Of a stretch of DNA of 61,405 bases, positions 42,982 to 61,258 are shown piece after piece. The notes beneath the pieces were generated by a model. It did not search any database. It saw only the letters and a list, made by a program, of their open reading frames with translations, and had not been told where the DNA came from. The DNA is from Alphaproteobacteria bacterium. Lineage in GTDB: Bacteria; Pseudomonadota; Alphaproteobacteria; Puniceispirillales; Puniceispirillaceae. A program made the position numbers and the translations under genes. Each line of letters opens with the position of its first letter. Within the stretch, counting starts at the first letter, position 1. The stretch spans positions 1 to 61,405 of the forward strand of contig JADHLI010000012.1 of the NCBI GenBank assembly GCA_016780775.1, given 5' to 3'.

Positions 42982-43024
42982 GGTATATAACTCTTCGCTT
43001 GGATTGTGGTTGCAGCCTATCCTG

Positions 43025-44383: not shown

Positions 44384-44556
44384 ATTTTTACTATTGGTTT
44401 GTCTTTCTTAAATAATGGGGGATTTTTTCCCGTTGGCCAAGAATTTATTTTCCCTGCCCCTTACAGGATAATTTAGATAAACTGCAATCAAAATAGATGA
44501 AAAGGAATTGACCTAAAAGATATATTAATAAAAGATTAAATATCTTGAGGATTGAT

Positions 44557-45087
44557 TTGCCAATAAAACAGCAGTTTTTGGAGACACAAATAGAAACTTT
44601 AAGAAAGATAGATGAGATTTTAGAAAAAGGGCTCTATTACATATCTGGCCTTTTACTAATTACCATTGCTACTATTGTGTTTGTAGCTGTTGTGATGCGA
44701 TACGTTTTCAATGAGCCACCCCTATGGGCAGATGAGGCGCCGCGAGTGTTTTTTCTTTGGATGACATATCTTGGTATCGCGGTTGCCACTAAACAAGGGA
44801 AGAATATTAGAGTTACTCATTTTATTGACAAATTTAGGCCCAAGCCAAGATTGGTTTTGGAAACATTTATGCATTCTTTGGTGCTTATAATGCTTGGCAC
44901 TTTGATCTGGTACAGCGTCCCAATTTTAAAGTTGCAAGCTGGTGGCTCCATGCTTTCAACAGGCTGGAGTTTTTTGTGGCTTTTTACACCAGTAACGGTT
45001 GGCAGTGTCTTAATGCTTTTTTATCAAACACGTCTGATGATAGCATCTATTCAGCAATATCAAAACAGCTATAAAAAAGGTGGCTAA
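44557..45087 (+). CDS. dctQ: TRAP transporter small permease (DctQ)
   Basis: About 176 residues, four membrane helices (YYISGLLLITIATIVFVAVV, FFLWMTYLGIAVA and two more), with the DctQ motif EEAPR-like WADEAPRVFFLWMTYLG. The start appears to be TTG at 44557, with TGAGG 6 nt upstream; no ATG is available. An inverted repeat AAGATAT/ATATCTT (44517-44546) spans the leader. DNA from here to 47.4 kb is clearly richer in A+T. Confidence 0.85.
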   Translation: MPIKQQFLETQIETLRKIDEILEKGLYYISGLLLITIATIVFVAVVMRYVFNEPPLWADEAPRVFFLWMTYLGIAVATKQGKNIRVTHFIDKFRPKPRLVLETFMHSLVLIMLGTLIWYSVPILKLQAGGSMLSTGWSFLWLFTPVTVGSVLMLFYQTRLMIASIQQYQNSYKKGG

Positions 45088-46383: not shown

Positions 46384-46448
46384 AAACAAATTATAATTAC
46401 GAACTCATCGGCAGATAATTTGTCAAATTAAACTAGAAGGAGGAAAAA

Positions 46449-47432: not shown

Positions 47433-47448
47433 CAAAACATATATCACA

Positions 47449-47477
47449 AGCCATCACCCCTTCTTAGGGTGATGGCT
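47449..47477. terminator. Strong hairpin terminator between convergent genes
   Basis: AGCCATCACCC (47449-47459) pairs perfectly (11 bp) with GGGTGATGGCT (47467-47477). It lies between dctP and the converging GMC gene, whose stop codon touches the stem. The T-run is short. Confidence 0.8.
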
Positions 47478-49097
47478 TTAATGTTCTCTCAATATATAAT
47501 CTGCCGCTTTTTCGGCTACCATCATCGTGGGCGCGGCAGTGTTTGCTGAGGGAATTGATGGAAAGACCGACGCATCTGCGATACGCAAACCTTCCACCCC
47601 TTGTACTCGTAACTCAGAATCAACTACCGCGTTTTTATCAACACCCATACGACAACTTCCGCAGAGGTGATGAACTGTGCTGGCATTTTGGCGTATCCAG
47701 CTAGATAGCGCGTTTTTTGTACGAATTTCATTACCTGGGGATAATTCTTCTTTGCGATAGGCATTAAACTGCTTTTGCGCGAACACATCACGCAAAATTT
47801 CAATGGCTGCGATCAGTTGAAATAAATCCCGGTCATCTTCAAGGTAATTCACGCAAATCTTGAGCGGGTCAGTTGGTTTTGACCCTGTTAGCCGTATAAA
47901 GCCTCGGCTAACAGGCCGCATTACAGACGCATTCGCCATGAAGCCTGGTTGGTTGTTCGCTGATTTTCTAAAGGGGTTAAAACGCATTGTCGCAGTGGAA
48001 AGTGCAGGCAGAAAGTGGCTTTGAATTGTTGGTATGTCGTCACCTTTCGTTCTGATATAGGCCCCAGCTTCTAATGGAAAAACGGTCATTGGCCCAGTGC
48101 CGAACAACCAAGCCTTAAGAAATGCCCCCGCCGCTTTATCTGCTCTGGTTAGGCCATGTAAAGTGACTTCTTGAGGAGCGCCATAACTAACCCTTATCAA
48201 GACATGGTCGTGCAGATTTTTTCCAACTTCTGGTAGGTCAATAATGGGTTTAACCCCTACCTCTTCCAATTCCTGCGCGGGCCCAATACCGGAGCGCAAT
48301 AATATGTGGGGTGACCCGATCGCACCGGCACATAAGATGATTTCTTGTTCGGCATAAAAACGCTTTTTTTCTCCTGATATCGACACCTCTACGGCTGTTG
48401 CTTTGTCCCGATTAAAGATGATTTTACTGACTTCACAGCCTGTCTGAATCTGAAGGTTTTTCCTGTTTAATGCTGATTTCAGAAAAGCAGTAGCAGCACT
48501 TTCTCGGTGCCCGTTACGAATGGTGAAATTGTAAAAACCAAAGCCTTCTGCATCAGGATGGTTGAAATCCATACAGCGTGGATAGCCAGCTGAAATGCCA
48601 GCCTCTACAAATGCATCCACAAGAGGGGAAAGCGGCTTTTGACGGTCAGAGACCGTAAGCAGACCTGTTTGATTATGCAACTCGCTGTTATTTTTACCGC
48701 AATAAATCTCGCTCTTCAAAAAAGAAGGCCGGACCTTAGACCATGACCAATCAGTCAGCCCAGATTGTGCCCAATGGTCATAATCAATTCCCAGTCCACG
48801 GGCATAGACCATGCCGTTAATCGCGGTTGACCCCCCCAATACTTTTCCTCTCGGCAGGGATATTCGTCGCTTCTCAAGTCCGGCTTCTTCATCGCTGAGA
48901 TATTGCCAAACATGGCGTTTGCCTCTCAGCAAAACAGCTGTCATCATCGGAACCTTGAGGGTAGGATCCATCGCTCCGCTACCCCCTGCTTCAATCAAGA
49001 GGACATTAAAATCTCTATTTTCAGACAAGCGATGGGCAAGAACGCAGCCCGCAGCACCGGCACCAACAATAATATGTGTCCAGCCTTTTTGCGCCAT
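47478..49097 (-). CDS. GMC oxidoreductase (choline/alcohol dehydrogenase family)
   Basis: 539 residues. FAD motif IIVGAGAAGCVLAHRLSE (about 8-25), GKVLGGSTAINGMVYARG and the second GMC signature GAIGSPHILLRSGIGP. C-terminal catalytic His region HHLCGSCRMG. It oxidises a primary or secondary alcohol using FAD, passing electrons to a quinone or oxygen. It is followed at 3 bp spacing upstream by the AhpD-like gene, so the two are one leftward operon. Substrate unknown. Confidence 0.88.
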   Translation of the reverse strand: MAQKGWTHIIVGAGAAGCVLAHRLSENRDFNVLLIEAGGSGAMDPTLKVPMMTAVLLRGKRHVWQYLSDEEAGLEKRRISLPRGKVLGGSTAINGMVYARGLGIDYDHWAQSGLTDWSWSKVRPSFLKSEIYCGKNNSELHNQTGLLTVSDRQKPLSPLVDAFVEAGISAGYPRCMDFNHPDAEGFGFYNFTIRNGHRESAATAFLKSALNRKNLQIQTGCEVSKIIFNRDKATAVEVSISGEKKRFYAEQEIILCAGAIGSPHILLRSGIGPAQELEEVGVKPIIDLPEVGKNLHDHVLIRVSYGAPQEVTLHGLTRADKAAGAFLKAWLFGTGPMTVFPLEAGAYIRTKGDDIPTIQSHFLPALSTATMRFNPFRKSANNQPGFMANASVMRPVSRGFIRLTGSKPTDPLKICVNYLEDDRDLFQLIAAIEILRDVFAQKQFNAYRKEELSPGNEIRTKNALSSWIRQNASTVHHLCGSCRMGVDKNAVVDSELRVQGVEGLRIADASVFPSIPSANTAAPTMMVAEKAADYILREH

Positions 49098-49099
49098 CT

Positions 49100-49834
49100 C
49101 TAGGACTTTCCAGCAGCCTCATCAAATCCACCTTGTCCAGTAAGATTGGCCCAAGCCTTATAGGGTGCGCTGGCATTTACTTTTCCGCTTTGGATCAAAT
49201 TTCGCCAGATATCACAAGCATCAACAAAATTAGGCACGCCGCCAGGGAACATGGCCAATGCCAGGCCTTCTGCGATGGCACCTTCATCTGCACCAGCTTT
49301 GTAGGCGCCTTGAATATGCTCACCAACCCAATCCCAGCGTCTGTGGCATTGATGAGCTGCGGCCAATCCTATTTCAAATATTTTTTGATCAATGGTATAT
49401 TTTTTTGTCAGTGTGTCTAATCCTTCACGATATTTTGCAACGCCATCAAAACCGTTTAAATGGGCTCCCCAATGTTTTTCAACAAAACTATAATGATCTG
49501 CGCCTTCCGCCCAAGTAGCGACAGCTACCGCTGCTTCTAAATCGGTTTCCCCGCCGCCTGATTTTCGCAGCCTGTCAATATGGTGGGTGGCAATTGCCTC
49601 TGAAGTAGATACAAGGATGATGAGCCAGATTATTTCCTTTTCATAAAGCGTTAAAACCCGATCTGTAAGTGTCATGTGGGTATAGGTGGCATCATAAGCA
49701 TCTAGAAGCTTCGGCGATGAAATGGCTAACAGCCCATGATGGGGAAGAAGATATCCTCTTTTATCACGCAAATGTTTAAGAGCTGTCTCAACTTCAGCAA
49801 CTGTTTGGGGTAGTTTATTATTGTTTTTCATCAC
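49100..49834 (-). CDS. Carboxymuconolactone decarboxylase-like (AhpD-fold) protein
   Basis: 244 residues with two AhpD-like helical modules: about 60-115 (LYEKEIIWLIILVSTSEAIATHHIDRL) and about 150-215 (IFEIGLAAAHQCHRRWDWVGEH, GADEGAIAEGLALAMFPGG). The redox CxxC of AhpD is not present, so a peroxidase role is unlikely; a decarboxylase or isomerase role is possible. Co-transcribed with the GMC oxidoreductase (3 bp apart). Confidence 0.7.
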   Translation of the reverse strand: MMKNNNKLPQTVAEVETALKHLRDKRGYLLPHHGLLAISSPKLLDAYDATYTHMTLTDRVLTLYEKEIIWLIILVSTSEAIATHHIDRLRKSGGGETDLEAAVAVATWAEGADHYSFVEKHWGAHLNGFDGVAKYREGLDTLTKKYTIDQKIFEIGLAAAHQCHRRWDWVGEHIQGAYKAGADEGAIAEGLALAMFPGGVPNFVDACDIWRNLIQSGKVNASAPYKAWANLTGQGGFDEAAGKS

Positions 49835-49913: not shown

Positions 49914-50654
49914 TCAATGGGCGGTAAAGCCACCGTCAGCTACAATCACTTGGCCAGTGATAAAGCTACTAGCATCTGATAAAAGAAAGGTAATAACATT
50001 GGCAACTTCTTCAGGCTGGCCAAAACGGCCCATCGGGATATCTGCCAAGATTGTTTGATATCGTTGTTCGTCTGCCCGTGCTGCGGCGGTCATGTCACTC
50101 ACAACTGGACCAGGGGCAACAGCGTTAACTCTTATAGATAAAGAGGCCAATTCCAGTGCAATAGATTTTGTTAGGCCATTGATACCGGCTTTTGAAGCTG
50201 CATAAGCTGCTGCTCTGGGATGGCCAACAAGGCCAATTTGACTCGATACAAAAACAATGGAACCAACCGGCTGTTTTTTGAGGTAGGGAATAACAGCTTT
50301 GGCAAGATAAAAGGCACCTGAAAGATTTGTATTAATGGTTTTATGCCAGCTCATCTCATCGGTTTGTATAGAAGTTTGAAGTGATAAAATACCCGCAACA
50401 GCCACCATGCCATCTAGACGCCCCTTATGGCTAGCTGCTTTATCAACAGCAGCGGTGATTTCTTCAGAATTGGTGATATCAACTTTGTAAATACATTCTG
50501 CAGGTAAGAATTTTTTTACCGTTTCGCGCTGGTCATCAGAAAAAACCGTTCCATAGACGCTCGCGCCAAGTTTTATCGCGGATTGTGCAGCGCACAGACC
50601 TATTCCAGAACCTATGCCTGCGATAAACACTGTTTTGTTTGCGAGTGTGAACAT
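49914..50654 (-). CDS. SDR-family oxidoreductase (FabG-like)
   Basis: 246 residues from ATG 50654 (a TTG 30 bp further upstream is less likely). FIAGIGSGIGLCAA cofactor loop, VAVAGIL in place of NNAG, SSQIGLVGHPRAAAYAASKAG catalytic Ser-Tyr-Lys, and VADGGFTAH at the end. NAD(P)-dependent oxidation of an alcohol is expected. Divergent from the racemase-fold gene and upstream of the AhpD/GMC pair in the same direction. Confidence 0.85.
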   Translation of the reverse strand: MFTLANKTVFIAGIGSGIGLCAAQSAIKLGASVYGTVFSDDQRETVKKFLPAECIYKVDITNSEEITAAVDKAASHKGRLDGMVAVAGILSLQTSIQTDEMSWHKTINTNLSGAFYLAKAVIPYLKKQPVGSIVFVSSQIGLVGHPRAAAYAASKAGINGLTKSIALELASLSIRVNAVAPGPVVSDMTAAARADEQRYQTILADIPMGRFGQPEEVANVITFLLSDASSFITGQVIVADGGFTAH

Positions 50655-50732
50655 GTTATTCTCAGGCGGTGTTGCGCTTTTCAACGTCTAATATCTTAAG
50701 AAAATACTAAAATCAGATCGGAGGCAAGTTAA

Positions 50733-51497
50733 TTGAAAAAAGTTCTGGTTATTGTCCCGTTCCCTATGTCAGAAGAAAATTTGGCTTTAAGGCGAGAGCA
50801 ACTTAAGGCGGTGTCTATTTCTGATTCTATTTCTTTTATTTTTAGACCGGTTAAAGCCGCGCCTCGAAACTATATCAGCCAAGCAGATATGGTGCTGGCA
50901 GACATCAGTATTCTAGAAGCAGGAATAAATGCCGAACAAGAGGGATTTTCAGCAGTTTGCATTGATACGATGAGCGATTCCGGCGCAGCAGCATTGCGTT
51001 CCATTCTGTCTATTCCTGTCATTGGGCCAGGGCGCACTTCAATGCTTTTTGCTTTATCTTTGGGCACAAAATTTTCCATCATAACAATGTGGCAAAAATG
51101 GAGACATCTTTATGATAAGACGGTCACAGACCTTGGCATTGGCCATGCGCTGGCATCTGTGCGCTCTATCAATATGGCGCCAGATAATCAGGCGCTGTTA
51201 AACAAAAAAGAAGAGGCGCTGTTTCCCCTTCTGGAGCAAGCGGCAAAAAAGGCTATCGAAGAAGATGGGGCAGAGGTAATTTTACTTGGCTCAACCACTA
51301 TGCATCAAGCCCATGATTATCTGTCAAAATCGCTTGATGTGCCTGTGATTAATCCGGGCCCGATGACCTATAAAATGGCAGAGATGATGATATCCTCTTC
51401 CCTTAGCCATAGCCGAAAAGCCTATCCAATATCCCCTGTCTCGCGCCATGAAATGATCGTGGCCATGATGAATAGCGCAGCCAGTTTTGACCATTAA
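50733..51497 (+). CDS. Asp/Glu/hydantoin racemase-fold protein lacking both cysteines
   Basis: 254 residues. The fold is shown by the block GFSAVCIDTMSDSGAAALRS, SIPVIGPGRTSMLFALSLGTKFSIIT and EVILLGSTTM, VPVINPGPMTYKMAE. The two catalytic Cys of racemases and maleate isomerases would fall at residues 79 (here Thr) and 187 (here Ser); a Cys at 76 is shifted. It may catalyse a different reaction such as decarboxylation, or be a binding protein. TTG start with GGAGG 8 nt upstream. The family includes maleate isomerase, which would suit the downstream hydratase and lyase. Confidence 0.75.
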   Translation: MKKVLVIVPFPMSEENLALRREQLKAVSISDSISFIFRPVKAAPRNYISQADMVLADISILEAGINAEQEGFSAVCIDTMSDSGAAALRSILSIPVIGPGRTSMLFALSLGTKFSIITMWQKWRHLYDKTVTDLGIGHALASVRSINMAPDNQALLNKKEEALFPLLEQAAKKAIEEDGAEVILLGSTTMHQAHDYLSKSLDVPVINPGPMTYKMAEMMISSSLSHSRKAYPISPVSRHEMIVAMMNSAASFDH

Positions 51498-51516
51498 AAT
51501 AGAAGAAGCTGAGGCC

Positions 51517-51915
51517 TTAGCTTCTTTTCGCAGCTAGCGTGTTTTCACCGCTCATATAGACCCGTACTTCTGAAAATAAATCATCTTTGACAGTGAAGAA
51601 ATTACAGTTTGATTTATGAACCAGATTGCCATTATGTAGCTTGTTGGTAACTTGAAATCGTGCAGCAATATCGCTACCAGAATGACTGGTCACAAAGTGA
51701 AAATTATCATGGCGCACCCATTGATGATGGGCCCAAAGCCTCTCAAACATCCCACAGATTGCTAGATGGCCTATCAATTTAATGTTATGGGTTTCAACAG
51801 TAAACATGCATTCTTTTGACAGAGTTTTTAATATCATTTCGATATTTTGCTCATCCACCCCACTAAAATAGGTCAGTACTTTTCCCTGAAGCGTCTGATA
51901 GGTCATTTTACCCAT
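51517..51915 (-). CDS. SnoaL/NTF2-like protein
   Basis: 132 residues: QTLQGKVLTYFSGVDEQNIEMILKTLSKECMFTVE, then WAHHQWVRHDNFHFVTSH and NFFTVKDDLFSEVRVYMSGEN are typical of the cone-shaped SnoaL/NTF2 fold, used by polyketide cyclases, ketosteroid isomerases and dehydratases. The start overlaps the stop of the upstream tautomerase fusion, so they are coupled. Activity unknown. Confidence 0.75.
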   Translation of the reverse strand: MGKMTYQTLQGKVLTYFSGVDEQNIEMILKTLSKECMFTVETHNIKLIGHLAICGMFERLWAHHQWVRHDNFHFVTSHSGSDIAARFQVTNKLHNGNLVHKSNCNFFTVKDDLFSEVRVYMSGENTLAAKRS

Positions 51916-52474
51916 CTTCTTTCATTATTTCACCCAAGTCGTTCCAAACTTCTTGGAAGGTGATTTTCCCATTTTTAAGCGTAAATTTGTCTATAAAGCG
52001 AATATCTTTAAAAGAAGTGCCGTCCAACCAGACGCCATGCAGGTTTCCAAAACAGGTCACAATGGCCTCTGTTCTCTGAAAAGAAGTGTCAAACCCATCA
52101 TAGGTTTTATGAACAGACTGATACCGCCTTTTTGCCCATGCGACCAATTCATCGAGCTGGGCAAACCGATTATTGCCAGGAAAGACCATTTCAAAACCTT
52201 CTGCCAGAAATGTTGAGGCACGAGCCAGATCGCGCTGTTCCATCGCATCTAAAAATTGCCTGACCATTACTTCTGGTTGTACAGTGGCCTTGGCAGGGGC
52301 TCTGTTTATCCGCCCGCGCATGTAATTTTCTGCTTCAACCTCTTTTATGGTGACAATAACCAAATCCGGATGGGCCCCTATCGTTGCGCATGCCACATCG
52401 GTCAGGCGTTCACTGATTAATTGGCGGGTTTGCTGGTCATACCCTTTAATCAGCGTGCATTCTATCATCGGCAT
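51908..52474 (-). CDS. 4-oxalocrotonate tautomerase-like domain fused to a SnoaL domain
   Basis: 188 residues. Residues 1-62 look like a tautomerase monomer: MPMIECTLIKGYDQQTRQLI with Pro2 ready to be the N-terminal catalytic base, and an Arg-rich end. Residues about 68-185 form a SnoaL/NTF2-like domain (VMVRQFLDAMEQRDLARAST, FIDKFTLKNGKITFQEVW). GGAG lies before ATG. I know no common family with this fusion. It is followed by a second, free SnoaL gene and divergent from the hydratase operon. Confidence 0.78.
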   Translation of the reverse strand: MPMIECTLIKGYDQQTRQLISERLTDVACATIGAHPDLVIVTIKEVEAENYMRGRINRAPAKATVQPEVMVRQFLDAMEQRDLARASTFLAEGFEMVFPGNNRFAQLDELVAWAKRRYQSVHKTYDGFDTSFQRTEAIVTCFGNLHGVWLDGTSFKDIRFIDKFTLKNGKITFQEVWNDLGEIMKEDG

Positions 52475-52580
52475 GTTTTGCTCTCCTTTTAAAGACTATT
52501 TTCACATGTATTTTGCCAATTAGTATAGAAAAAAATAAGCTTTAATCATTCATCTATCTGCTGAAGTTTTCGCAGAAAAC

Positions 52581-52611
52581 AGTTTCATTAAACTAAAACT
52601 ATGATAGTTTT
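52581..52611. promoter_or_regulatory. Operator-like palindromes before the hydratase operon
   Basis: AGTTT-CATT-AAACT (52581-52594) is immediately followed by the perfect 17-bp palindrome AAAACTATGATAGTTTT (52595-52611), which ends 5 bp before the hydratase ATG. It lies in the 142-bp gap between divergent operons and so could control both. No regulator gene is near. Confidence 0.65.
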
Positions 52612-52616
52612 TATAC

Positions 52617-53885
52617 ATGCGTACCCTTGCCCAAAGACTTATTTCAAAAGCCTGTAACAGTGACCAGGTCAACACCGGCGACATTGTCGTGTGCAAGGTT
52701 GATTTGGCAATGATACATGATTCTGGCGGCCCAAGGAGAGTAAAGCCTATCTTGCAAAGATTGGGGCGCGAGGTGTGGGATAAAGATAAAGTTGTTGTAG
52801 TCACAGATCATTATGTGCCTGTAGAAAGTGAAGAGACGAAGGCAATTCAACTTCTCACCAGACAATGGGTAAGAGACCAAGATATCCAAAATTTTTATGA
52901 TCAGCAGGGCATTTGTCATGTTGTCCTACCTGAACGTGGTCATTTGAAGCCAGGCATGTTCTGTGTTGGCGGAGATAGTCATTCGCCAACTGGTGGGGCT
53001 TTTGGTGCATTTATGTTTGGTATTGGAGCCACTGAAATGGCTGGAGTTCTGGTGACAGGCGAGATATGGATTAAAGTGCCACAAACGATTTTGATAAGCT
53101 GGCAAGGACAGCTATCACCTTATGTAACAGCAAAAGATATGATGCTGGCAACCTGCAGGGATATTGGCATGGGAGGTGGGCGCTATCAGGCGGTTCAATT
53201 TGCAGGTGAGGCTGTGCGGGCCCTGTCAATGCAAGAACGCATGACGCTCTCGAACATGGCCGCAGAGCTTGGTGCTCAAGTAGGGTTGATCGCCCCTGAT
53301 GAAAAGACCGCAGCCTATTTACAGAACGCGGGTGTTGAAATGCCTGAGGATTGGCAGGATTTTTGTATTGAAGAGGCAGCAGAGGGCGACCAGAAAATCT
53401 GCTATGATGCACAAACGCTTGCCCCGCAAATAGCTGCGCCGCACTCACCTGAAAATGCAGATAATGCGCAGGCATTCAAAAACACCCGATTTGATTTAGC
53501 TTATATTGGTGCTTGCACAGGTGCAAAATTTGTTGATTTGGCCGCTGCCGCTTCGGTTTTGAAGGGCCGCAAAATTGCTTCTGGGATTACACTTAAAGTG
53601 GCCCCAGCCAGTCTGCGCGATCAAAAACGCGCAGAAAAAGAAGGCATTATGCAAATTCTCGTAGATGCGGGGGCAGAATTTTTATCTAACTCTTGTGGCA
53701 TTTGCGCAGGTTATGGTGCAGATAGATTGGCTGAAAATCAAGTTTGCTTGTCTTCTACAGCACGTAATTTCAAAGGGCGCATGGGCGCGGCTAGCTCTCA
53801 GGTATATTTGGCTTCACCTTATACAGTCGCTGCTTCTGCTGTTACTGGTAGAATGATTGACCCCCGTGAAATTTTGGCGGAATAA
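52617..53885 (+). CDS. Aconitase-family hydratase, large subunit (LeuC / dimethylmaleate hydratase-like)
   Basis: 422 residues. The [4Fe-4S] ligands are all present: Cys300 (IGACTG), Cys360 and Cys363 (SNSCGICAG). FCVGGDSHSPTGGAFGAFMFG and STARNFKGRMG are family blocks. Such two-part enzymes hydrate isopropylmalate, methylmalate, maleate or dimethylmaleate-type substrates. Leucine synthesis is unlikely here because leuA and leuB are absent and catabolic genes surround it. No ribosome site is visible before ATG, so a leaderless or poorly initiated transcript is possible. First of seven plus-strand genes. Confidence 0.85.
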   Translation: MRTLAQRLISKACNSDQVNTGDIVVCKVDLAMIHDSGGPRRVKPILQRLGREVWDKDKVVVVTDHYVPVESEETKAIQLLTRQWVRDQDIQNFYDQQGICHVVLPERGHLKPGMFCVGGDSHSPTGGAFGAFMFGIGATEMAGVLVTGEIWIKVPQTILISWQGQLSPYVTAKDMMLATCRDIGMGGGRYQAVQFAGEAVRALSMQERMTLSNMAAELGAQVGLIAPDEKTAAYLQNAGVEMPEDWQDFCIEEAAEGDQKICYDAQTLAPQIAAPHSPENADNAQAFKNTRFDLAYIGACTGAKFVDLAAAASVLKGRKIASGITLKVAPASLRDQKRAEKEGIMQILVDAGAEFLSNSCGICAGYGADRLAENQVCLSSTARNFKGRMGAASSQVYLASPYTVAASAVTGRMIDPREILAE

Positions 53886-53894
53886 GGGAGCGTT

Positions 53895-54392
53895 ATGGGC
53901 AGGCTATGGCGATTTGATGAGGCGATTAACACCGATGTTTTGGCACCAGGCATTTATATGAAATCTTCATTGGAAGTGCTTGCCCCACATTGTCTCGAGG
54001 CAGTTCGGCCTGAATTTGCTTCGCAGGTTAGGGCAGGAGATGTCTTTATGGCTGGCCACAATATGGGTGCTGGTTCCTCTCGTGAACAGGCTGCTGAAGT
54101 GCTGAAATTTCTTGGAGTATCTTGTGTTGTCGCCCAAAGCTTTGCGGGTATATTTTATCGTAATGCCATTAATCTGGGGTTGCCCGTATTTGTGCTTCCC
54201 GCTTTAGACAGGCTTCCTAGCGCATTGCACGATAGTGCCAATGTGGTCTTTGATTTTGATAGTGCAAAACTCAGCCTGCCAGAGCATAAATTACATATCC
54301 AGCTAGACCCGCTACCCTCATTTTTGCGGGACTTAATCTTAGATGGCGGGCTTGTGCAACATTTGGAAAAACGCTTTGCCATTTTGCGTTAG
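53895..54392 (+). CDS. Aconitase-family hydratase, small subunit (LeuD-like)
   Basis: 165 residues with the swivel-domain signatures DEAINTDVLAPGIY and AGHNMGAGSSREQAAEVLKFLG, where GSSREQAA binds substrate carboxylate, and VVAQSFAGIFYRNAINLGLPV. It lies 9 bp after the large subunit. Together they form an alpha-hydroxydicarboxylate dehydratase/hydratase; the substrate is unknown. Confidence 0.88.
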   Translation: MGRLWRFDEAINTDVLAPGIYMKSSLEVLAPHCLEAVRPEFASQVRAGDVFMAGHNMGAGSSREQAAEVLKFLGVSCVVAQSFAGIFYRNAINLGLPVFVLPALDRLPSALHDSANVVFDFDSAKLSLPEHKLHIQLDPLPSFLRDLILDGGLVQHLEKRFAILR

Positions 54393-54401
54393 AGGTGACG
54401 A

Positions 54402-55250
54402 ATGTTAAAACTACTGTTAAGAGATGAGTTTGTTCTTGCGCCAGGGATTTATGATGCGCTTTCAGGTTTGATTGCCGAACAATCTGGTGCGAAGGCCGTC
54501 TATTTATCTGGGGCCAGCATTGCCTATACCCGTTTTGGACGCTCGGATATCGGGCTTGTCTCTGTTTCAGAAGTTTATGATACTTTGGCAGCTATCACTG
54601 AACGTATCGCCATCCCTGTGATCGTAGATGCCGATACAGGCTATGGAAATGCGTTAAATGTCCAACGCACAGTGCGCAATTTTGAACGCGCTGGGGCGTG
54701 TGCAATCCAACTTGAAGACCAGTCCTTTCCAAAACGGTGTGGCCATCTTGCTGACAAGCGGTTGGTCACACAATCTGAGATGGTAGGAAAAATAAAAGCA
54801 GCCTTAGATGCAAGACAAGATGACAATACACTCATTATTGCCAGAACCGATGCGCGTGCAGTTGATGGGTTTGAAGCGGCTTTGGCGCGCGGGGCAGCTT
54901 TCAAAGAAGCAGGGGCAGATATTTTGTTTATTGAAGCCCCGCAGTCGCTTGAAGAAATGCAGAAGATTACAGCTACATTTGCAGCAGATATTCCACTTCT
55001 TGCGAATATGGTGGAAGGCGGAAAAACGCCTATTCGCACCGCCAATGACCTAGAACAGCTTGGCTATAAACTAGCAATTTTTCCAGGTGGTGCAGTGCGC
55101 GCAATTGCTTTGCATCTTCAAGCCTATTATCAAGGATTGCTAAAAGAGGGAAATAATGAAGCATTTTCGAAAAAAATGCATGATTTCAATGGATTGAATG
55201 AAGTTATCGGTACCAAAGAATTGCTGAAGTTTGGTAAAAAATACGAATAG
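54402..55250 (+). CDS. Isocitrate lyase/PEP mutase-family lyase (dimethylmalate or methylisocitrate lyase-like)
   Basis: 282 residues of the TIM-barrel family: APGIYDALSGLIAEQSG, YLSGASIA, DADTGYGN with metal-binding Asp76/Asp78, and QLEDQSFPKRCGH with catalytic Cys113. It splits 2-hydroxy acids bearing a beta-carboxylate into an oxo acid (commonly pyruvate or glyoxylate) and a carboxylate. It follows the hydratase subunits by 9 bp, the same order of steps as dimethylmaleate hydratase then 2,3-dimethylmalate lyase in nicotinate fermentation. Substrate inferred only at class level. Confidence 0.88.
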   Translation: MLKLLLRDEFVLAPGIYDALSGLIAEQSGAKAVYLSGASIAYTRFGRSDIGLVSVSEVYDTLAAITERIAIPVIVDADTGYGNALNVQRTVRNFERAGACAIQLEDQSFPKRCGHLADKRLVTQSEMVGKIKAALDARQDDNTLIIARTDARAVDGFEAALARGAAFKEAGADILFIEAPQSLEEMQKITATFAADIPLLANMVEGGKTPIRTANDLEQLGYKLAIFPGGAVRAIALHLQAYYQGLLKEGNNEAFSKKMHDFNGLNEVIGTKELLKFGKKYE

Positions 55251-55283
55251 AACCCAGTTAGTCATGATCAAGTAGAGTGAAAA

Positions 55284-56945
55284 ATGGATGCAGTTACACT
55301 AGCGATTTTAAAGGGCCGGCTTGAGCAGATAGCGGATGAAATGGATGCCACCTTGTTCCGTACGGCCTTCAACCCAATCATTGCCGAAGCACATGATGCC
55401 AGCCATGGTATCTATGATGCCAAGACAGGAGAGACCCTTATTCAAGGCAAGTCTGGCTTGCCTATCTTTGTTGGGGTGATGGCGTTTGCTGTAAAGGCTG
55501 TTATCGACAAAGTATCAAAGGATGGCCATTTGCAAGAAGGCGATGTCTTTATTTTTAACGACCCGTATGATGGGGGAACACATCTATCAGACTTCCGGCT
55601 CGTGAAACCTATTTTCAGAAATGGGGAAGTTTTCTGCTATCTCGCCTCTGTCGGACATTGGCATGATGTAGGTGGTAATGTTCCGGGTAATTATAATCCA
55701 GAAGCCAGGGAGAGTTTCCAAGAAGGAATGCTCATTCCGCCGGTTAAACTCTTTGAAGCGGGTGTAATGAAAGAGGATATAGTCGATATATTATCGGCAA
55801 ACTCTCGCCTGCCTATTTCTCTTTATGGGGATTTAAATGGTCAGATTAATGCGCTCGATTTGGGCCAAGAACGGCTCCATGCTATACTTGATGAATATTC
55901 AGAAGACACGATTTTAGACGCGCTCTCCGCATTGCGTGGCCGAGCAGAACAGATGATGAGAGAACACCTCCGTCAACTTGGCAGTAATAAGCTCCATGTT
56001 GAAGATTATCTTGATAATGATGGGGTAACCGACACCGCCCTAAAGCTTGCACTAGATATGACAATCACAGATTCAGGTGGGCTGATTATGGATTTCAGCC
56101 GCTCCAGCTCAGCATGTGATGGCCCGGTAAATATTTCGCGCTCCACAACTATTGCAGCGACCTATGTCGCTTTAAAACATATTTTCACAGATGTGCCTGC
56201 AAATGCAGGTGTTTTAAAACCGGTTGAGTTTATTATTCCTGAAAATTCATTTTTAAGCGTGAGGGCCCCAAAGCCTGTAGGCGGATATACAGAAACAATT
56301 TTACGTCTGATCGATGTGGTGTTTCAATGTTTCCAGCATGTTGCACCAGAAAAGGTAAATGGCTGTGCCTATGGCACGATTAATGCGCTTTCATTAGCGG
56401 GCTACAGAAAGAATGGGAGTCGCTGGGTAATGTTCTCGTTTTTTGGCGGTGGGCATGGTGGGCATCCTGAAGGTGATGGTCTGAACCATGGAAATGCCCC
56501 AATTTCTACAGCAACCATTCCACCGCTTGAAATCCTAGAAGCGGCTTACCCAGTACAATTCACCCAATGGGCATTGCGTCCTGATTCAGGGGGTGAGGGG
56601 GAAAATCGTGGCGGCTTGGGTGCCATTTATGAAATTGAATTATTAGAAGAAGAAGCAACAGGCTTTCTGTTCGGAGAGCGTGGAAAATTTGCACCTCAAG
56701 GTGTGGTTGGTGGTGGAAAAGGCGCTCAAAATATTTTTTCCTATGATAGTGATGAACCCGATGCTGAAAATGGGAAAAAATATCCCCCCCTCATTTCAAA
56801 AATTACAGGAATTCCTCTTAAAAAGGGCCAGCGCGTGCGGCTTGAAACACCTGGCGGCGGGGGCTATGGGGATGTAAAAAAACGCTCTAAGGCGCGTGTC
56901 GATTATGATCTGAAACAAGGCTATGTGACGCAGGTGAAACAATGA
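55284..56945 (+). CDS. hyuB: Hydantoinase/oxoprolinase B subunit
   Basis: 553 residues, complete. N-terminal LAILKGRLEQIADEMDATLFRTAFN and AEAHDASHGIYDA, NDPYDGGTHLSDF, FSRSSSACDGPVNIS, and the Gly-rich end VRLETPGGGGYGD. HyuB with HyuA forms ATP-dependent ring-opening amidohydrolases (N-methylhydantoinase, 5-oxoprolinase) or, in relatives, acetone or acetophenone carboxylases. Its last codons overlap hyuA (ATGA). The unusual order is B before A. Confidence 0.92.
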   Translation: MDAVTLAILKGRLEQIADEMDATLFRTAFNPIIAEAHDASHGIYDAKTGETLIQGKSGLPIFVGVMAFAVKAVIDKVSKDGHLQEGDVFIFNDPYDGGTHLSDFRLVKPIFRNGEVFCYLASVGHWHDVGGNVPGNYNPEARESFQEGMLIPPVKLFEAGVMKEDIVDILSANSRLPISLYGDLNGQINALDLGQERLHAILDEYSEDTILDALSALRGRAEQMMREHLRQLGSNKLHVEDYLDNDGVTDTALKLALDMTITDSGGLIMDFSRSSSACDGPVNISRSTTIAATYVALKHIFTDVPANAGVLKPVEFIIPENSFLSVRAPKPVGGYTETILRLIDVVFQCFQHVAPEKVNGCAYGTINALSLAGYRKNGSRWVMFSFFGGGHGGHPEGDGLNHGNAPISTATIPPLEILEAAYPVQFTQWALRPDSGGEGENRGGLGAIYEIELLEEEATGFLFGERGKFAPQGVVGGGKGAQNIFSYDSDEPDAENGKKYPPLISKITGIPLKKGQRVRLETPGGGGYGDVKKRSKARVDYDLKQGYVTQVKQ

Positions 56946-58993
56946 GTCGGAAGATGGTAATTGGGGTCGATGTCGGGGGCACTTTTACAGATATACTCGC
57001 CCTTGATGAGATATCCGGCACGGTGAAAGTCGTCAAAACCCCGTCTACACGGGGCGATCAATCCATTGGGTTCCTTGAGGGCATCCTCAGCGTGACAGAA
57101 GATTTATCTGCTGTGGCGACGGTAATTCATGGTACCACTGTTGCCACAAATGCATTGCTTGAGCGTAAAGGGGCGAAAACAGGCATTATTACAACAGCTG
57201 GCTTTCGTGATGTCCTTGAAATGCGTCGGCGTGACAGACCACAGACTTGGGGGCTTTGGGGACAATTCGTGCCAGTTGTTGATCGTCAGAACAGAATAGA
57301 GGTGGCAGAGCGCACTTTGGCAGATGGGACAATTCGTCAGGCTGTCAACGAACAAGAAGTAAAAGCTGCAGCCGAAACATTGCTTGCAAATGGATGCCTA
57401 TCGGTATGTCTGTTTTTCATTAATGGTTATGCCAATCCAAAAAATGAGCAGGTCGCTGCAAAAATATTGCGGGCGTGCTGGCTAAATGAACATGTCAGTG
57501 TTGCAACAGAAATTCTGCCGGAAATACGAGAATTTGAACGCTGTTCAACTGCAACATTAAATGCATATCTGCAACCGCCAGTTGCAAATTATCTAGCCAG
57601 ACTTGAAGACAGAATTGCCGAACAGAAGGCGGAATCAGAAATTTTGATTGTCCAGTCCAATGGCGGTGTGATGTCTGTAGAATCTGCAAAATCATTGCCT
57701 ATAAAGACCGCTTTATCTGGCCCGGCTGCAGGTGTGGTTGCTGCGCGTCAAATCGCTTCAGCCGCAGGTTTTGATAATATTATTACAGGGGATATGGGCG
57801 GAACATCTTTTGATGTGTCTTTGGTGGCAGACGGTCAAAATATGCTTACCGCTCAGGTAAATATTGATTTTGGAATGACTATTCGTGTGCCAATGATTGA
57901 AATGACGACCATTGGCGCTGGCGGCGGGTCGATCGCACATATTGATGAAACAGGGCTATTAGAAATAGGCCCTGAATCTGCAGGCTCTGATCCTGGCCCG
58001 GCTTGTTATGGGCTGGGCAATACACGGCCCACCGTTACCGATGCTAATCTTCTGCTGGGCAGAATCGATGCTACCAATCCGATAGGCGGTAAACAAAAAT
58101 CGCTGGATAAACAAGCTGCCATAGGCGCAATAGAAACAAATATTGCTAAGCCACTTGGGCTAGATGTTTATGACGCAGCAGAGGCGATTATCAAAGTAGC
58201 AAACGCTAAGATGGGCGGGGCGATCAGGCTGATTTCTATTGAGCGTGGCTATGATCCAAAGCTCTTTGCGATGATGCCCTTTGGCGGTGGTGGCGCATTA
58301 CATACAGGTGCTTTGATGCTCGATATTGGTCTTGGGGCGTCTGTGGTTCCACGTTATCCGGGTGTGAATTCTGCTTTGGGGTGTGTGATGTCCGACTTAC
58401 GCCATGATGAAGTGCGTACCATGAATGTTTTGCTGGATGGGCTTGATTGTGCTGAGCTTGCGCAGATGATTAAAGAGATCACTTTAGCCTCAACCAAAAG
58501 AGTTCAAAACACCAAAGCCAAGCTGGCATCGATTGATAGAATTATTGAGTTAGACATGCTCTATATGGGGCAGTCTCATTCTGTTGCAGTGCCCATATTA
58601 GAGGATCCGGAGAAGCTGACAGTTGCCACTATTGGTGCGGCTTTTGATCGAGCCTATACAAAAGCCTATAGTCGTCCATTAACAGGTATCCCTATCCGAA
58701 TCCTTAATCTGCGGCTGTCTATGGTTGGTGTGCGGCCGGCAATTGATTTGCAAATTCTTACAAAGGGTGCGCGCGCAAATTCTGTTGCATCCTGTTTAAT
58801 CTCAGAACAGCCAATTTATGCCGATGGTTCATGGCATAACGGCCAGATTATTGACCGGCTTCGTCTGCCAGAAGGGGCTGAATTACATGGCCCAGCATTA
58901 TTGGTTCAGCCAGATGCAACCATCTATCTTGACCCCTTTATCAGCGCAACTGTGGATAGCTTCGGCAATATTATTATGAAGACCAGAGGATAG
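56942..58993 (+). CDS. hyuA: Hydantoinase/oxoprolinase A subunit
   Basis: 683 residues. ATP-binding actin-like domain: GVDVGGTFTDILALD, VIHGTTVATNALLERKGA, GDMGGTSFDVSL and MTTIGAGGGSIAHID. A hydantoinase_A core and a C-terminal beta domain follow. It phosphorylates or activates the substrate for the HyuB half. It overlaps hyuB by 4 bp and lies 1 bp before the isochorismatase-fold gene. Confidence 0.92.
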   Translation: MSRKMVIGVDVGGTFTDILALDEISGTVKVVKTPSTRGDQSIGFLEGILSVTEDLSAVATVIHGTTVATNALLERKGAKTGIITTAGFRDVLEMRRRDRPQTWGLWGQFVPVVDRQNRIEVAERTLADGTIRQAVNEQEVKAAAETLLANGCLSVCLFFINGYANPKNEQVAAKILRACWLNEHVSVATEILPEIREFERCSTATLNAYLQPPVANYLARLEDRIAEQKAESEILIVQSNGGVMSVESAKSLPIKTALSGPAAGVVAARQIASAAGFDNIITGDMGGTSFDVSLVADGQNMLTAQVNIDFGMTIRVPMIEMTTIGAGGGSIAHIDETGLLEIGPESAGSDPGPACYGLGNTRPTVTDANLLLGRIDATNPIGGKQKSLDKQAAIGAIETNIAKPLGLDVYDAAEAIIKVANAKMGGAIRLISIERGYDPKLFAMMPFGGGGALHTGALMLDIGLGASVVPRYPGVNSALGCVMSDLRHDEVRTMNVLLDGLDCAELAQMIKEITLASTKRVQNTKAKLASIDRIIELDMLYMGQSHSVAVPILEDPEKLTVATIGAAFDRAYTKAYSRPLTGIPIRILNLRLSMVGVRPAIDLQILTKGARANSVASCLISEQPIYADGSWHNGQIIDRLRLPEGAELHGPALLVQPDATIYLDPFISATVDSFGNIIMKTRG

Positions 58994-58994
58994 G

Positions 58995-59618
58995 ATGATG
59001 AAACATAATGCCCAGAAATTAAATGCCGAAAAGACGGCCATTTTGATAGTTGATCTTCAAAATGACTTTCTTGACCCCAACGGGGCATATGGCAAGGCTG
59101 GCCAGACAAGTCCCGAAATCGCCGCTCTGCCAGAAAAGCTTCTTCCGCTTTTGAATCTTGTGCGCAAAAAAGGGGGTTGGATAGTTTCTACCCAATTTAC
59201 CCTAGTGCCCGGAAAGGCAGGAGAGCCCTTTATCGCCTTCCATCTGAAAAAATTACGCCCCTTTTTAAAAAAGGGAGATTTTGCACCGGCTTCGTGGGGC
59301 AATAGCCTGGTCGATAAGCTTCAGCCTGCAGATATTACGGTTGAAAAAGTAGCCTATTCTGCTTTCTATCAGACGCGTATGGAATTCGCACTATCGCGTG
59401 CTGGGATAAACACATTATTTGTTTGCGGTATTGTTACCAACGGCGGGGTGGCCTCAACCGTTCGTGATGCCCATGTTCGAGATTTTCATACTATAACCCT
59501 GGAAGATGGGTGTGCGGCATTTTCACCTGAAACCCATCATGTCGCGATAAAATCTCTCTCGACAGTTGGTGAGGTTATGTCGATTGCGCAAGCTATGAAG
59601 CTGTTTGAAGCAGTCTAG
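58995..59618 (+). CDS. Isochorismatase-fold hydrolase lacking the catalytic cysteine
   Basis: 207 residues. Asp20 (LIVDLQNDF) and Lys118 (VEKVAYSAF) of the isochorismatase/nicotinamidase triad are present. The Cys that follows TN in N-carbamoylsarcosine or maleamate amidases is replaced by Gly151 (GIVTNGGVASTVRDAH). Non-cysteine members such as the isochorismatase PhzD hydrolyse ether bonds using Asp. A role in opening a vinyl ether or acting on the HyuAB product is possible. It is tightly packed (1 bp) after hyuA, so co-translated. Confidence 0.82.
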   Translation: MMKHNAQKLNAEKTAILIVDLQNDFLDPNGAYGKAGQTSPEIAALPEKLLPLLNLVRKKGGWIVSTQFTLVPGKAGEPFIAFHLKKLRPFLKKGDFAPASWGNSLVDKLQPADITVEKVAYSAFYQTRMEFALSRAGINTLFVCGIVTNGGVASTVRDAHVRDFHTITLEDGCAAFSPETHHVAIKSLSTVGEVMSIAQAMKLFEAV

Positions 59619-59622
59619 AGCT

Positions 59623-61017
59623 ATGGCAGGGATTGTTATTGAAAGCCCAATTTCTGCTGATATCGAAATAGACTGCTTGATCATTGGGGGCGGGGCAGCA
59701 GGGTTAACTGCATCGCTGGCGGTGGCCCAAGCTGGGCTTAGCGTGCTTATTGCAGAACGCCAAGACCGGGTATCTGGTTCAACAGCTCTGTCTTCTGGGT
59801 TGATTCCGGCAGCAGATACCAATGCACAAAGGCGTCAACAGCTTGAAGATGATACAGACCAATTCTTTTCAAATATCATGGCTAAGAATAATCATCAGGC
59901 TGACACGGCCCATGTCTGGCGTTGTATAAATGGTGTGCGTGCTGCCATAAACTGGCTGGAAACAGATCATGATATTCCCTTTCATGTTCTAGATAGTTTT
60001 TTATATCCAGGCCATAGCCACTATAGAATGCATGCTGTCCCTGAAGTCACAGGCAAGGATTTGGTCAGACGGCTGGAACACGCAGCAAGCAAGCAAGAAA
60101 TACCGATCTCATGTAATCTGAAAATAACCAATTTGGTGGTATCAGATGCTGGAAATATTATCGGTGCACAAGCAGAACGCCCAGATGGTTGCCAAGAGAC
60201 GATTGCGGCGAAGATGATTATTTTGGCCTGTAATGGCTATGGTGGCAATCGTGATCTGGTCGCAAGATATATTCCAGAAATGCGCGATGCTATCTATTTT
60301 GGCCATTCCGGAAATCAGGGCGAGGCAGTGCTTTGGGGGCAGGCGCTGGGGGCTGAAATAGCGCATCTTTCTGGGTATCAGGGGCATGGATCTGTTGCGT
60401 ACCCGCACGGTATATTAATTACTTGGGCAATCATGATGGAAGGTGGCTTTCAGGTAAATCAACTGGGCAAACGGTTTTCAAATGAACATCATGGCTATTC
60501 TGAACAGGCGGTTAATGTGCTCAGCCAGTCCGGACAGCTGGCCTATAATATTTTTGATGCCCGATTAACGGCACTGGGCGCTGAGTTTGAGGATTTCAGA
60601 AATGCCGAACAAGCTGGGGCGATTATCAAGGCAGATACGATAGCTGAACTGGCGGACAAAATAGAAATAGATGGACATAATCTGGCCAACACTCTGGCAG
60701 AATGCAATCGGCTGGCAGATACAGGTGAAATAGATGGATTTGGTCGCCGGTTTTTGCCTGAAAAGAAACTGTCTCCGCCTTTTTCGGCGGTTAAGGTTAC
60801 TGGTACTTTATTTCATACACAAGGCGGGCTGGTTATAAATGATCACGCCCAAGTGTTGAGAACAGATGGTTCTATTGTTGCTGGATTATATGCCTGTGGG
60901 GGGGCAGCATGCGGGGTTTCCGGCCCAGATGTGTCGGGCTATCTTTCAGGAAACGGGCTTTTGACAGCCCTTGCACTTGGCTATCTCGCTGGCCATCACA
61001 TCGCACAAGATTTTTAG
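59623..61017 (+). CDS. FAD-dependent dehydrogenase, fumarate reductase/ketosteroid dehydrogenase family
   Basis: 464 residues from ATG 59623. FAD motif CLIIGGGAAGLTASLAVAQAG, GSTALSSGLIPAA near residue 55, and the C-terminal GGAACGVSGPDVSGYLSGNG. It has the FrdA/tricarballylate dehydrogenase/3-ketosteroid 1-dehydrogenase layout, which introduces or removes a C=C next to a carboxylate or carbonyl. It is last in the operon, 4 bp after the isochorismatase-fold gene. It could create the unsaturated acid that the hydratase then hydrates (inference). Confidence 0.82.
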   Translation: MAGIVIESPISADIEIDCLIIGGGAAGLTASLAVAQAGLSVLIAERQDRVSGSTALSSGLIPAADTNAQRRQQLEDDTDQFFSNIMAKNNHQADTAHVWRCINGVRAAINWLETDHDIPFHVLDSFLYPGHSHYRMHAVPEVTGKDLVRRLEHAASKQEIPISCNLKITNLVVSDAGNIIGAQAERPDGCQETIAAKMIILACNGYGGNRDLVARYIPEMRDAIYFGHSGNQGEAVLWGQALGAEIAHLSGYQGHGSVAYPHGILITWAIMMEGGFQVNQLGKRFSNEHHGYSEQAVNVLSQSGQLAYNIFDARLTALGAEFEDFRNAEQAGAIIKADTIAELADKIEIDGHNLANTLAECNRLADTGEIDGFGRRFLPEKKLSPPFSAVKVTGTLFHTQGGLVINDHAQVLRTDGSIVAGLYACGGAACGVSGPDVSGYLSGNGLLTALALGYLAGHHIAQDF

Positions 61018-61206: not shown

Positions 61207-61258
61207 TGAAAAATGGTGCACCCGACAAGATTCGAACTTGTGACCTCTGCCTTCGGAG
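61207..61258 (-). repeat. att-like site B: second 3' end of tRNA-Arg(CCG)
   Basis: Same 52-bp block and orientation as 37690-37741, with differences at three positions. Two of them (G-C to A-T in the T-stem) compensate each other, so the arm still pairs. Again only the 3' part of the tRNA (anticodon loop CTCCGAA to CCA) is present. From 61259 to the edge there is A+T-rich DNA without a gene. Confidence 0.88.

Follow-up and report, generated by a model that had tools for sequence, protein, structure and literature searches.

The window analysed here is a stretch of 61,405 nucleotides from contig JADHLI010000012.1 of an alphaproteobacterium of the family Puniceispirillaceae, whose genome comprises 2.2 Mb in 44 contigs. 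Positions 52617-61017 hold seven genes on one strand, coding in this order for a LeuC-like and a LeuD-like protein, a PrpB-family lyase, HyuB, HyuA, an isochorismatase-fold hydrolase and a flavin adenine dinucleotide (FAD) dehydrogenase; the successive gaps are 9, 9, 33, -4, 1 and -14 bases and three junctions overlap or almost touch, and the run is thus read as an operon. On balance, this operon is likely to serve the catabolism of a cyclic imide with side chains on its ring carbons, and hematinic acid or its dihydro form is a tentative candidate for the main natural substrate. A preliminary description made from the sequence alone had named ten genes at 50733-61017, all of which are intact open frames of the families it had given (Pfam, NCBIfam). 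The enzymes all belong to known families and, in line with the same description, which knew of no pathway with this gene set, their combination was not found described in the open-access literature.

The reactions that we infer, and their order, are the following. The compound would be taken up by a TRAP transporter in the window, or by a Liv-type ABC transporter elsewhere. Saturated rings of the succinimide type would undergo epimerisation or tautomerisation by the racemase-fold and tautomerase-SnoaL proteins and then desaturation by the FAD enzyme, yielding the maleimide; HyuBA would open the ring, in an ATP- and metal-dependent reaction, to the half-amide, and the loss of ammonia, provisionally assigned to the isochorismatase-fold protein, would leave a substituted maleate. 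Hydration by LeuCD (or by MmgE/PrpD) would produce a substituted malate, and the PrpB-like lyase would split it, by a retro-aldol-type cleavage, into a 2-oxoacid and a carboxylic acid; these last two steps would be a lengthened copy of the lower methylcitrate cycle. Aconitase-type and PrpD-type hydratases accept alkene diacids such as (substituted) maleate. With the leading substrate, hematinic acid or 3-(2-carboxyethyl)-4-methylmaleimide, the products would be pyruvate, glutarate and NH3, and the dihydro form would join the pathway before desaturation. ATP-dependent opening, hydration and C-C cleavage, as first proposed, remain the best prediction. The metal site of HyuB, the iron-sulfur cysteines of the LeuC-like protein and the cysteine of the lyase are intact.

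Gene content and linkage were computed by scanning the LeuC-like protein alone against 84,980 species genomes. The best 80 of 297 confirmed places were kept, and 60 of these, with at least 6.5 kb of sequence upstream and at least 7.5 kb downstream, were counted, 20 being dropped for short flanks; gene presence was called by tblastn with identity floors set by the analyst, not from annotation. All 60 loci have LeuD and 59 have the lyase. HyuB, HyuA and the isochorismatase-fold hydrolase each occur in 43 and the FAD enzyme occurs in 41; GntR regulators accompany 52 of the loci and Liv-type ABC transporters 40. The window uses a TRAP transporter, while most other loci have a LivKHMGF ABC transporter. 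The gene order of the window operon recurs in many other genomes. In an independent class sample of 385 genomes (HyuB match at E<=1e-200, LeuC match at E<=1e-100), HyuB occurs in 28 and LeuC in 30. The two are found together in 17 genomes, 13 of which have them on the same contig with starts no more than about 3.1 kb apart; in the remaining four (G167, G186, G289 and G345) they are on separate contigs, the LeuC gene of G167 being cut by the contig end. The linkage between HyuB and LeuC is not due to chance. The conserved co-occurrence of hyuBA with leuCD-like and lyase genes, for which a search had been recommended, is thus present across Alpha- and Betaproteobacteria, and the view of the cluster as one conserved catabolic unit is supported. 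Within the window's own family the distribution is patchy, a full-length LeuC of more than 70% identity occurring in 8 of 61 genomes, with partial sequences at 73-84% in 3 more, as would suit a catabolic trait that is mobile; large plasmids carry relatives of the cluster in Azospirillum, Sulfitobacter, Roseomonas, Neorhizobium, Tistrella and Paraburkholderia.

Clusters in which modules are replaced while the remainder stays provide the strongest evidence. Azospirillum oryzae has the order GntR-LivKHMGF-lyase-HyuB-HyuA-hydrolase-FAD enzyme, followed by a LeuC and LeuD of the canonical type, and Roseomonas has GntR-LivKHMGF-MmgE/PrpD-lyase-HyuB-HyuA-hydrolase-FAD enzyme, with MmgE instead of LeuCD. 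The Neorhizobium cluster reads Liv-MmgE-lyase-HyuB-HyuA-hydrolase-tautomerase/SnoaL-FAD enzyme-racemase-racemase, and the one of Sulfitobacter is in two parts, TRAP, canonical-type LeuDC and GntR on one side and tautomerase/SnoaL-HyuB-HyuA-hydrolase-lyase-FAD enzyme on the other. Tistrella carries canonical-type LeuCD in the hydratase slot, within HyuB-HyuA-hydrolase-GcdH-CaiB-LeuC-LeuD on one strand; a Tistrella-like locus (L219, genome G221, contig C2) looks like the second half of a split pathway, GntR-Liv-MmgE-lyase-tautomerase/SnoaL-FAD enzyme-racemase-racemase-MmgE. The ring opener is also exchanged: locus L188 of an alphaproteobacterium has GntR-Liv-LeuCD-lyase-Cys hydrolase-PuuE2-PuuE1-FAD enzyme, and a PuuE-like pair was identified in 8 loci, 7 of which also have the Cys hydrolase (the eighth, L191, is cut off at this point by the end of its contig). 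The hydratase slot is therefore filled by window-type LeuCD, canonical-type LeuCD or MmgE/PrpD, and the ring-opener slot by HyuBA or the PuuE-like pair; since the slots accept three kinds of hydratase and two kinds of ring opener, hydration and ring opening are likely the reactions performed. Among the 13 genomes of the class sample with LeuC and no HyuB, 9 were examined and PuuE-like genes were present in 7, the other two being contigs of 4.5 and 5.8 kb; among the 11 with HyuB and no LeuC match, canonical-type LeuC lies beside HyuB in 4 (three of them Tistrella) and MmgE in 3 (one only 23-26% alike), and in 4 no hydratase was seen, one of these being a 5.5 kb contig. A relationship of the hydratase to true isopropylmalate isomerases, which the preliminary description had regarded as decisive against the pathway, is compatible with it, as canonical-type LeuCD occupies the slot in Azospirillum, Tistrella and Sulfitobacter.

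The PuuE-type variant is complete in L218, on the conjugative plasmid p1 of Burkholderia plantarii, where it is accompanied by the FAD enzyme, ETF-like genes, GcdH and CaiB. PuuE is an allantoinase. PuuE1 and PuuE2 of L218 score 128-142 bits against a cut-off of 424.6 and are not true PuuE; they are nearer PuuE than HpPgdA/3qbu, and their sequence does not tell an imide from a ureide opener. The PuuE of L174 was rejected as a ring-opener swap, since it scores as a true allantoinase (435.4, above 424.6). The PuuE fold includes, besides allantoinase, HxnM, which opens a cyclic imide (passages of PMC9304392). The Cys hydrolase of L218 retains its cysteine (STSGCVRAT), and its nearest structure is 4l07 (118.7 bits), followed by N-carbamoylsarcosine amidohydrolase (103.2) and NicF (87.6); 4l08, the protein of 4l07 with the Cys mutated, is titled maleamate amidase Ami of Pseudomonas putida S16. 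As an opener of the HxnM fold and a hydrolase resembling maleamate amidases replace HyuBA and its hydrolase, the simplest reading is a conversion of a substituted maleimide through the maleamate to the maleate. This resembles HxnM/HxnN of Aspergillus and the bacterial imidase/half-amidase pair, in which imide opening is followed by amide hydrolysis; however, most of the present clusters use the ATP-dependent HyuBA and continue with a hydratase and a C-C lyase. A divergent HyuBA-hydrolase cluster was also noticed in L184 (G411), with two CaiB-like genes, nitrilase-like and citrate-lyase-beta-like genes (named by inspection of the sequence) and a lyase at 39%.

HyuB is nearest, among structures in the PDB, to N-methylhydantoinase and caprolactamase, and its residues D38, H100, D103 and H125 align with the metal ligands of the caprolactamase subunit CapB, each being kept in 79 or 80 of 80 rows, as expected of a HyuAB/CapAB-type hydrolase. 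These four ligands are named in passages of PMC8453981, according to which the same Asp-His-Asp-His site also occurs in related carboxylases and does not separate them from the hydrolases. Fold, ATPase subunit and metal ligands are thus shared with HyuAB and CapAB, but HyuB and HyuA score only 279.1 and 494 bits with the caprolactamase equivalogs, whose cut-offs are 1000, and the logic of the operon differs.

The LeuC-like protein scores above the cut-offs of PRK00402 (514.8 bits, cut-off 385) and hacA_fam (440.6, cut-off 385.7), and its iron-sulfur cysteines C300, C360 and C363 are found in 110 of 110 aligned rows; on these grounds it may be assigned to the broad LeuC/HacA/DmdA family. The hydratase does not reach the narrower equivalogs, either leuC (269.7 against 560.25 bits) and LEU2 (365.6 against 610.65) or the homoaconitase models HacA_Meth (399.8 against 550) and HacB2_Meth (140.3 against 230). 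The same genome has a canonical leuC on contig C41, and in a quick tree the window protein groups with operon-linked orthologs, apart from that leuC, as the proposed phylogenetic check had asked, the support of the deepest split being weak (79). Identity with LeuCD of the leucine pathway was rejected by the NCBIfam scores, the tree and the separate leuC. Other aconitase-family members in the genome are a 690-residue aconitase-like protein encoded at window position 35183 and a weak third match on contig C25. The LeuD-like protein scores 149.7 bits with TIGR02087, above the cut-off of 108.95, and its loop YMKS aligns with YLRT of homoaconitase (2pkp) and YLVY of isopropylmalate isomerase (3vba). 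The loop Arg of homoaconitase binds the extra carboxylate; at the corresponding residue, Lys occurs in 92 and Arg in 2 of the 110 aligned rows (basic in 94). According to passages of PMC7308503, the LeuD-type loop determines substrate preference. The MmgE/PrpD protein of the window, relatives of which occupy the hydratase slot in other genomes, is a probable accessory hydratase.

For the lyase, the best NCBIfam model is prpB (284.3 bits), below the cut-off of 354.4 of this methylisocitrate lyase equivalog, and the nearest PDB structures are methylisocitrate lyases, followed by petal death protein and 2,3-dimethylmalate lyase (3fa3). The catalytic Cys, in the K-R/K-CGH motif of the phosphoenolpyruvate (PEP) mutase/isocitrate lyase superfamily, is present in 105 of 105 rows, and Phe, Ile and Pro align with Phe186, Leu234 and Pro236 of PrpB, which we take to be the methyl pocket. 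The methylcitrate cycle is probably organised alike in its lower half, formed by PrpD/AcnD, aconitase and PrpB, with MmgE/PrpD- and aconitase-type hydratases feeding a PrpB-family lyase; the window differs by the prpB score below cut-off, the LeuCD-type hydratase, the ring-opening module and the suggested formation of glutarate instead of succinate.

The isochorismatase-fold protein, initially taken as the hydrolase of the pathway on the assumption of a catalytic Cys, is not a normal Cys amidase. Alignment with biuret/triuret hydrolase, RutB and YecD places Gly at the position of the nucleophilic Cys of the amidases of this fold, and all 75 aligned rows of the HyuBA-linked protein read TNGG there. 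Its AlphaFold2 model (pLDDT 90.1) is best matched in Foldseek by triuret hydrolase, RutB and biuret hydrolase; the maleamate amidases Ami and NicF, which are among the nearest structures to the Cys hydrolase of the PuuE variant, differ from the window protein in having the Cys. E. coli YecD likewise is without the Cys in the alignment, and true isochorismatases are not known to carry it either. Since TNGG replaces the nucleophile, the protein would either release ammonia by an unusual mechanism or have another role, such as enamine hydrolysis, and the amidase step is therefore putative. Dialkyl maleamic acids are unusually labile, and aid from a neighbouring carboxylate is therefore conceivable. 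Orthologs carry the labels "cysteine hydrolase" or rutB in other annotations.

In the FAD enzyme, previously described as FrdA-like, R290, H404 and Y446 are each found in 59 of 59 rows; the acid-base Arg and His of the fumarate-reductase family are kept, whereas the C-terminal Arg is replaced by Tyr446. In flavoproteins of the fumarate reductase/succinate dehydrogenase type this Arg binds the substrate carboxylate; because it is missing, a dicarboxylate such as succinate is an unlikely substrate, and Tyr446 would suit a ring or carbonyl better than a diacid. No heme or iron-sulfur partner for the enzyme was found in the operon. Isomerisation had been ascribed to the racemase-fold protein and the tautomerase-SnoaL fusion. 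Both genes do belong to the system, as they lie in the same gene run on the Neorhizobium and Sulfitobacter plasmids, but the "racemase" has T79 and S187 in place of the two catalytic Cys of hydantoin/allantoin racemases, with an invariant C76 three residues off (14 of 14 rows). Its model is nearest to allantoin racemase AllR (Z 26.6, root-mean-square deviation 2.5, 234 aligned residues); maleate isomerase was rejected as nearest fold, with a Z of about 16. A 61% homolog is present in the Neorhizobium operon, and relatives occur in tandem pairs in several genomes, also in the Neorhizobium and Tistrella clusters. In the tautomerase-SnoaL fusion the start Met is followed by Pro in all 44 rows, and the gene lies in line with hyuB in Sulfitobacter and between the isochorismatase-fold gene and the FAD enzyme in Neorhizobium. 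A second SnoaL-like gene is found in 4 of the 60 loci, mostly in the window's marine relatives.

A clue to the products comes from glutaryl-CoA dehydrogenase (GcdH), whose gene is no more than 10 kb away from the cluster in seven genera: Herminiimonas, a Hyphomicrobiales metagenome-assembled genome, Polaromonas, Tistrella (three genomes), two more alphaproteobacterial genera and Burkholderia plantarii, whose copy, on the conjugative plasmid, matches the solved Burkholderia GcdH with 735 bits. Two of these genera have it in divergent orientation to leuC, 140 to 340 bases away, and in Tistrella it lies in line between the hydrolase and leuCD. In the class sample, among the matches listed and hence as at least these numbers, GcdH occurs in 217 of the 385 genomes, as a single copy in 208 and in multiple copies in 9; the extra copy is the cluster copy in 4 of these 9, three of them Tistrella. 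It lies within 10 kb of HyuB or LeuC in at least 6 of 41 class genomes, with about 0.2 expected by chance (our own estimate, for one copy in a genome of about 4 Mb). The best NCBIfam model of the CaiB neighbours in L218 and L216 is succinate--glutarate CoA-transferase (542 and 533 bits, cut-off 750). The CaiB gene beside the Pandoraea clusters (5 of 60 loci) was rejected as evidence and is read as marking an insertion site; the next gene reads as alanyl-tRNA synthetase in L060, and a gene of the same cluster (37) follows in three more. A neighbouring GcdH speaks for glutarate rather than propionate, and the dimethylmaleate branch of nicotinate fermentation, proposed earlier as the known parallel, is thus a weak guide. 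Hematinic acid fits, because conversion of the imide through half-amide, maleate and malate, followed by cleavage, would give pyruvate and glutarate; by our own arithmetic, C8H9NO4 + 3 H2O = C3H4O3 + C5H8O4 + NH3. Chlorophyll ring D yields the dihydro imide. Passages of PMC7318184 report hematinic acid in leaves and cite it from lake sediments as a remnant of chlorophyll or heme. No description of its bacterial catabolism was found in the open-licence PMC literature, including passages of PMC7318184 and PMC8669743. One might envisage, though doubtfully, that bacteria use this pathway for the monopyrroles left over from heme, bilins and chlorophyll; hematinic acid and the dihydro (chlorophyll ring D) and alkylidene (bilin) succinimides would then yield pyruvate and glutarate, with the Cys-less enzyme expelling ammonia by means of the neighbouring carboxylate of the substrate.

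Several observations weigh against this interpretation. The HyuBA-linked hydrolase is devoid of the amidase Cys, and the step of ammonia release thus has no standard catalyst in these clusters; of the 43 loci with both HyuBA and the lyase, 39 have the FAD enzyme and 4 lack it; the lyase of Tistrella is on another contig; and the LeuD loop residue is Ser, Ala, Gly, Asn or Val in 16 of 110 rows, several of which come from complete HyuBA operons. Only a minority of clusters adjoin GcdH, 1 among the 60 primary loci, and the window's own copy is on another contig (C43); the NCBIfam equivalog cut-offs for the named CaiB and GcdH are not reached. No heme- or chlorophyll-related genes were identified in the loci, whose flanking genes had no systematic annotation. 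Lastly, 17 of the 60 loci contain LeuCD with neither HyuBA nor PuuE (16 of them with the lyase, 14 with a TctC-like gene), indicating that LeuCD and lyase work without a ring opener; such loci may import a tricarboxylate directly. Clusters of the Cupriavidus/Bordetella type, LeuCD-lyase-GntR, mostly with a TctC-like gene and no ring opener, were noted in L036, L046, L053, L055, L058, L064, L070, L080 and others, and they probably serve the uptake and cleavage of a free tri- or dicarboxylate.

Other substrates have to be weighed against a carboxylated imide. A dialkyl maleimide without carboxyl side chain, such as the tetrapyrrole-derived methyl-ethyl- or methyl-vinyl-maleimide, would be degraded to pyruvate and a monocarboxylic acid or to 2-oxobutyrate and propionate; the slot swaps speak for it equally, LeuCD/PrpB-like chemistry needs no third carboxyl, and Ser, Ala, Gly or Val at the LeuD loop residue could mark loci of this variant. 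This substrate is unlikely, as a tricarboxylate and glutarate are favoured by GcdH adjoining the cluster in seven genera and by the basic residue that 94 of 110 rows have in the LeuD loop. Quite unlikely is a hydantoin or other cyclic ureide, for which HyuBA would be the hydantoinase, the racemase-fold protein would racemise the hydantoin and the isochorismatase-fold protein would act as carbamoylase, leaving the remainder to LeuCD and the lyase. The nearest solved relative of HyuB is an N-methylhydantoinase, allantoin and hydantoin racemases are the closest structures to the racemase model, allantoinase is the namesake activity of the PuuE-like openers, and N-carbamoylsarcosine amidohydrolase is the second-nearest structure group to the PuuE-linked Cys hydrolase; yet the product of a hydantoin is an amino acid instead of an alkene diacid, the recurrent neighbours include no recognised ammonia lyase, and both the racemase fold and the hydrolase of the window are deprived of their cysteines.

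A route like that of nicotinate fermentation, from dimethylmaleate through dimethylmalate to propionate and pyruvate, with HyuBA opening an oxo-nicotinate lactam, is very improbable and was rejected. Its hydratase and lyase are of the right families: DmdAB and dimethylmalate lyase of Eubacterium barkeri likewise combine a LeuCD-type hydratase with a PEP-mutase-family lyase, the LeuD/DmdB model is above its cut-off, 3fa3 is among the nearest structures of the lyase, and, in our own view, the Cys-less hydrolase could act on an enamine. The mutase and methylitaconate isomerase genes, whose lack had already been remarked, and nicotinate dehydrogenase were not recognised in the window operon or among the recurrent neighbours; GcdH would be superfluous, and the HxnM-type and maleamate-amidase-type replacements, alternative to HyuBA, indicate imide and maleamate chemistry. 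The basic LeuD loop is a further difference from the Eubacterium barkeri system. No better a prospect is a six-membered imide, for instance citrazinate of the isonicotinate route, converted through cis-aconitamide to aconitate. Ring opener, amidase and aconitase-type hydratase match the isonicotinate pathway in outline, but aconitate does not call for a hydratase or lyase of its own, the genome encodes separate members of the aconitase family, and the route would end in succinate and glyoxylate instead of glutarate.

The features of the operon and its neighbourhood are listed in the table.

Table. Genes of the window discussed in the text (positions in the window).
Feature	Position	Strand	Evidence
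MmgE/PrpD protein, probable accessory hydratase	43025-44383	-	PF03972/PF19305
TRAP transporter (DctQ, DctM, DctP), probable importer	44545-47432	+	PF04290, PF03480 for DctQ, DctP; DctM named from sequence and position
SDR (short-chain dehydrogenase/reductase) dehydrogenase	49914-50684	-	PF13561; adjoins racemase gene in marine relatives
Asp/Glu/hydantoin racemase-fold protein	50733-51497	+	PF01177
Second SnoaL-like protein	51517-51915	-	SnoaL_2 24.8 bits, under Pfam cut-off 27
Tautomerase-SnoaL fusion	51908-52474	-	Pfam Tautomerase and SnoaL_2; Pro after start Met
LeuC-like large subunit, aconitase-superfamily hydratase	52617-53885	+	Pfam Aconitase; PRK00402, hacA_fam
LeuD/DmdB-like small subunit	53895-54392	+	TIGR02087; recognition loop YMKS
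PrpB/dimethylmalate-lyase-like C-C lyase (PEP mutase/isocitrate lyase superfamily)	54402-55250	+	Best NCBIfam prpB, below cut-off
HyuB, metal subunit of ATP-dependent cyclic amide hydrolase	55284-56945	+	PF02538 547.9 bits
HyuA, ATPase subunit	56942-58993	+	PF01968/PF05378/PF19278; caprolactamase alpha 494 bits, cut-off 1000
Isochorismatase-fold hydrolase without catalytic Cys (TNGGVAST)	58995-59618	+	PF00857; nearer triuret hydrolase, RutB and biuret hydrolase
FAD dehydrogenase/reductase, flavocytochrome c/KstD family	59605-61017	+	PF00890 (FAD_binding_2); TIGR01813 240.1 bits, cut-off 285.45

The two SnoaL-type genes, one of them fused to a tautomerase, are divergent from the operon, and further upstream are found the racemase-fold gene, the SDR, a carboxymuconolactone-decarboxylase-like (CMD) gene, a GMC oxidoreductase, the TRAP transporter, MmgE/PrpD and a class II aldolase. 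The SDR beside the racemase gene is kept in the marine relatives L003, L004, L006-L009, L194, L195 and L198. The genes for the class II aldolase, MmgE/PrpD, TRAP, GMC oxidoreductase and CMD-family proteins adjoin the operon at 42223-49834, and L198, of the same genus, retains TRAP, GMC, CMD and SDR. Directly after the operon, 150 bases from the contig end, lies a tRNA-like stretch at 61216-61258 (T-loop-like GATTCGAACTTGTGACC); ARAGORN found no tRNA in the window, and, with up to 2 mismatches allowed, the stretch has no second copy in the genome. An attachment-site remnant of the island could lie here.

These clusters contain several traps for annotation: a "leuCD" that lies outside leucine synthesis, a "cysteine hydrolase" without the cysteine and a "racemase" without its cysteines. 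The slot swaps represent a rare case in which non-homologous replacement spells out the types of reaction. If the proposal is true, the operon would provide a testable enzyme set for ring-substituted cyclic imides, including maleimides and the hematinic acid derived from heme and chlorophyll, for which no bacterial pathway was found in the open-access literature; should the more doubtful tetrapyrrole reading also be right, tetrapyrrole carbon and nitrogen would be returned in this way to the marine and soil food web.

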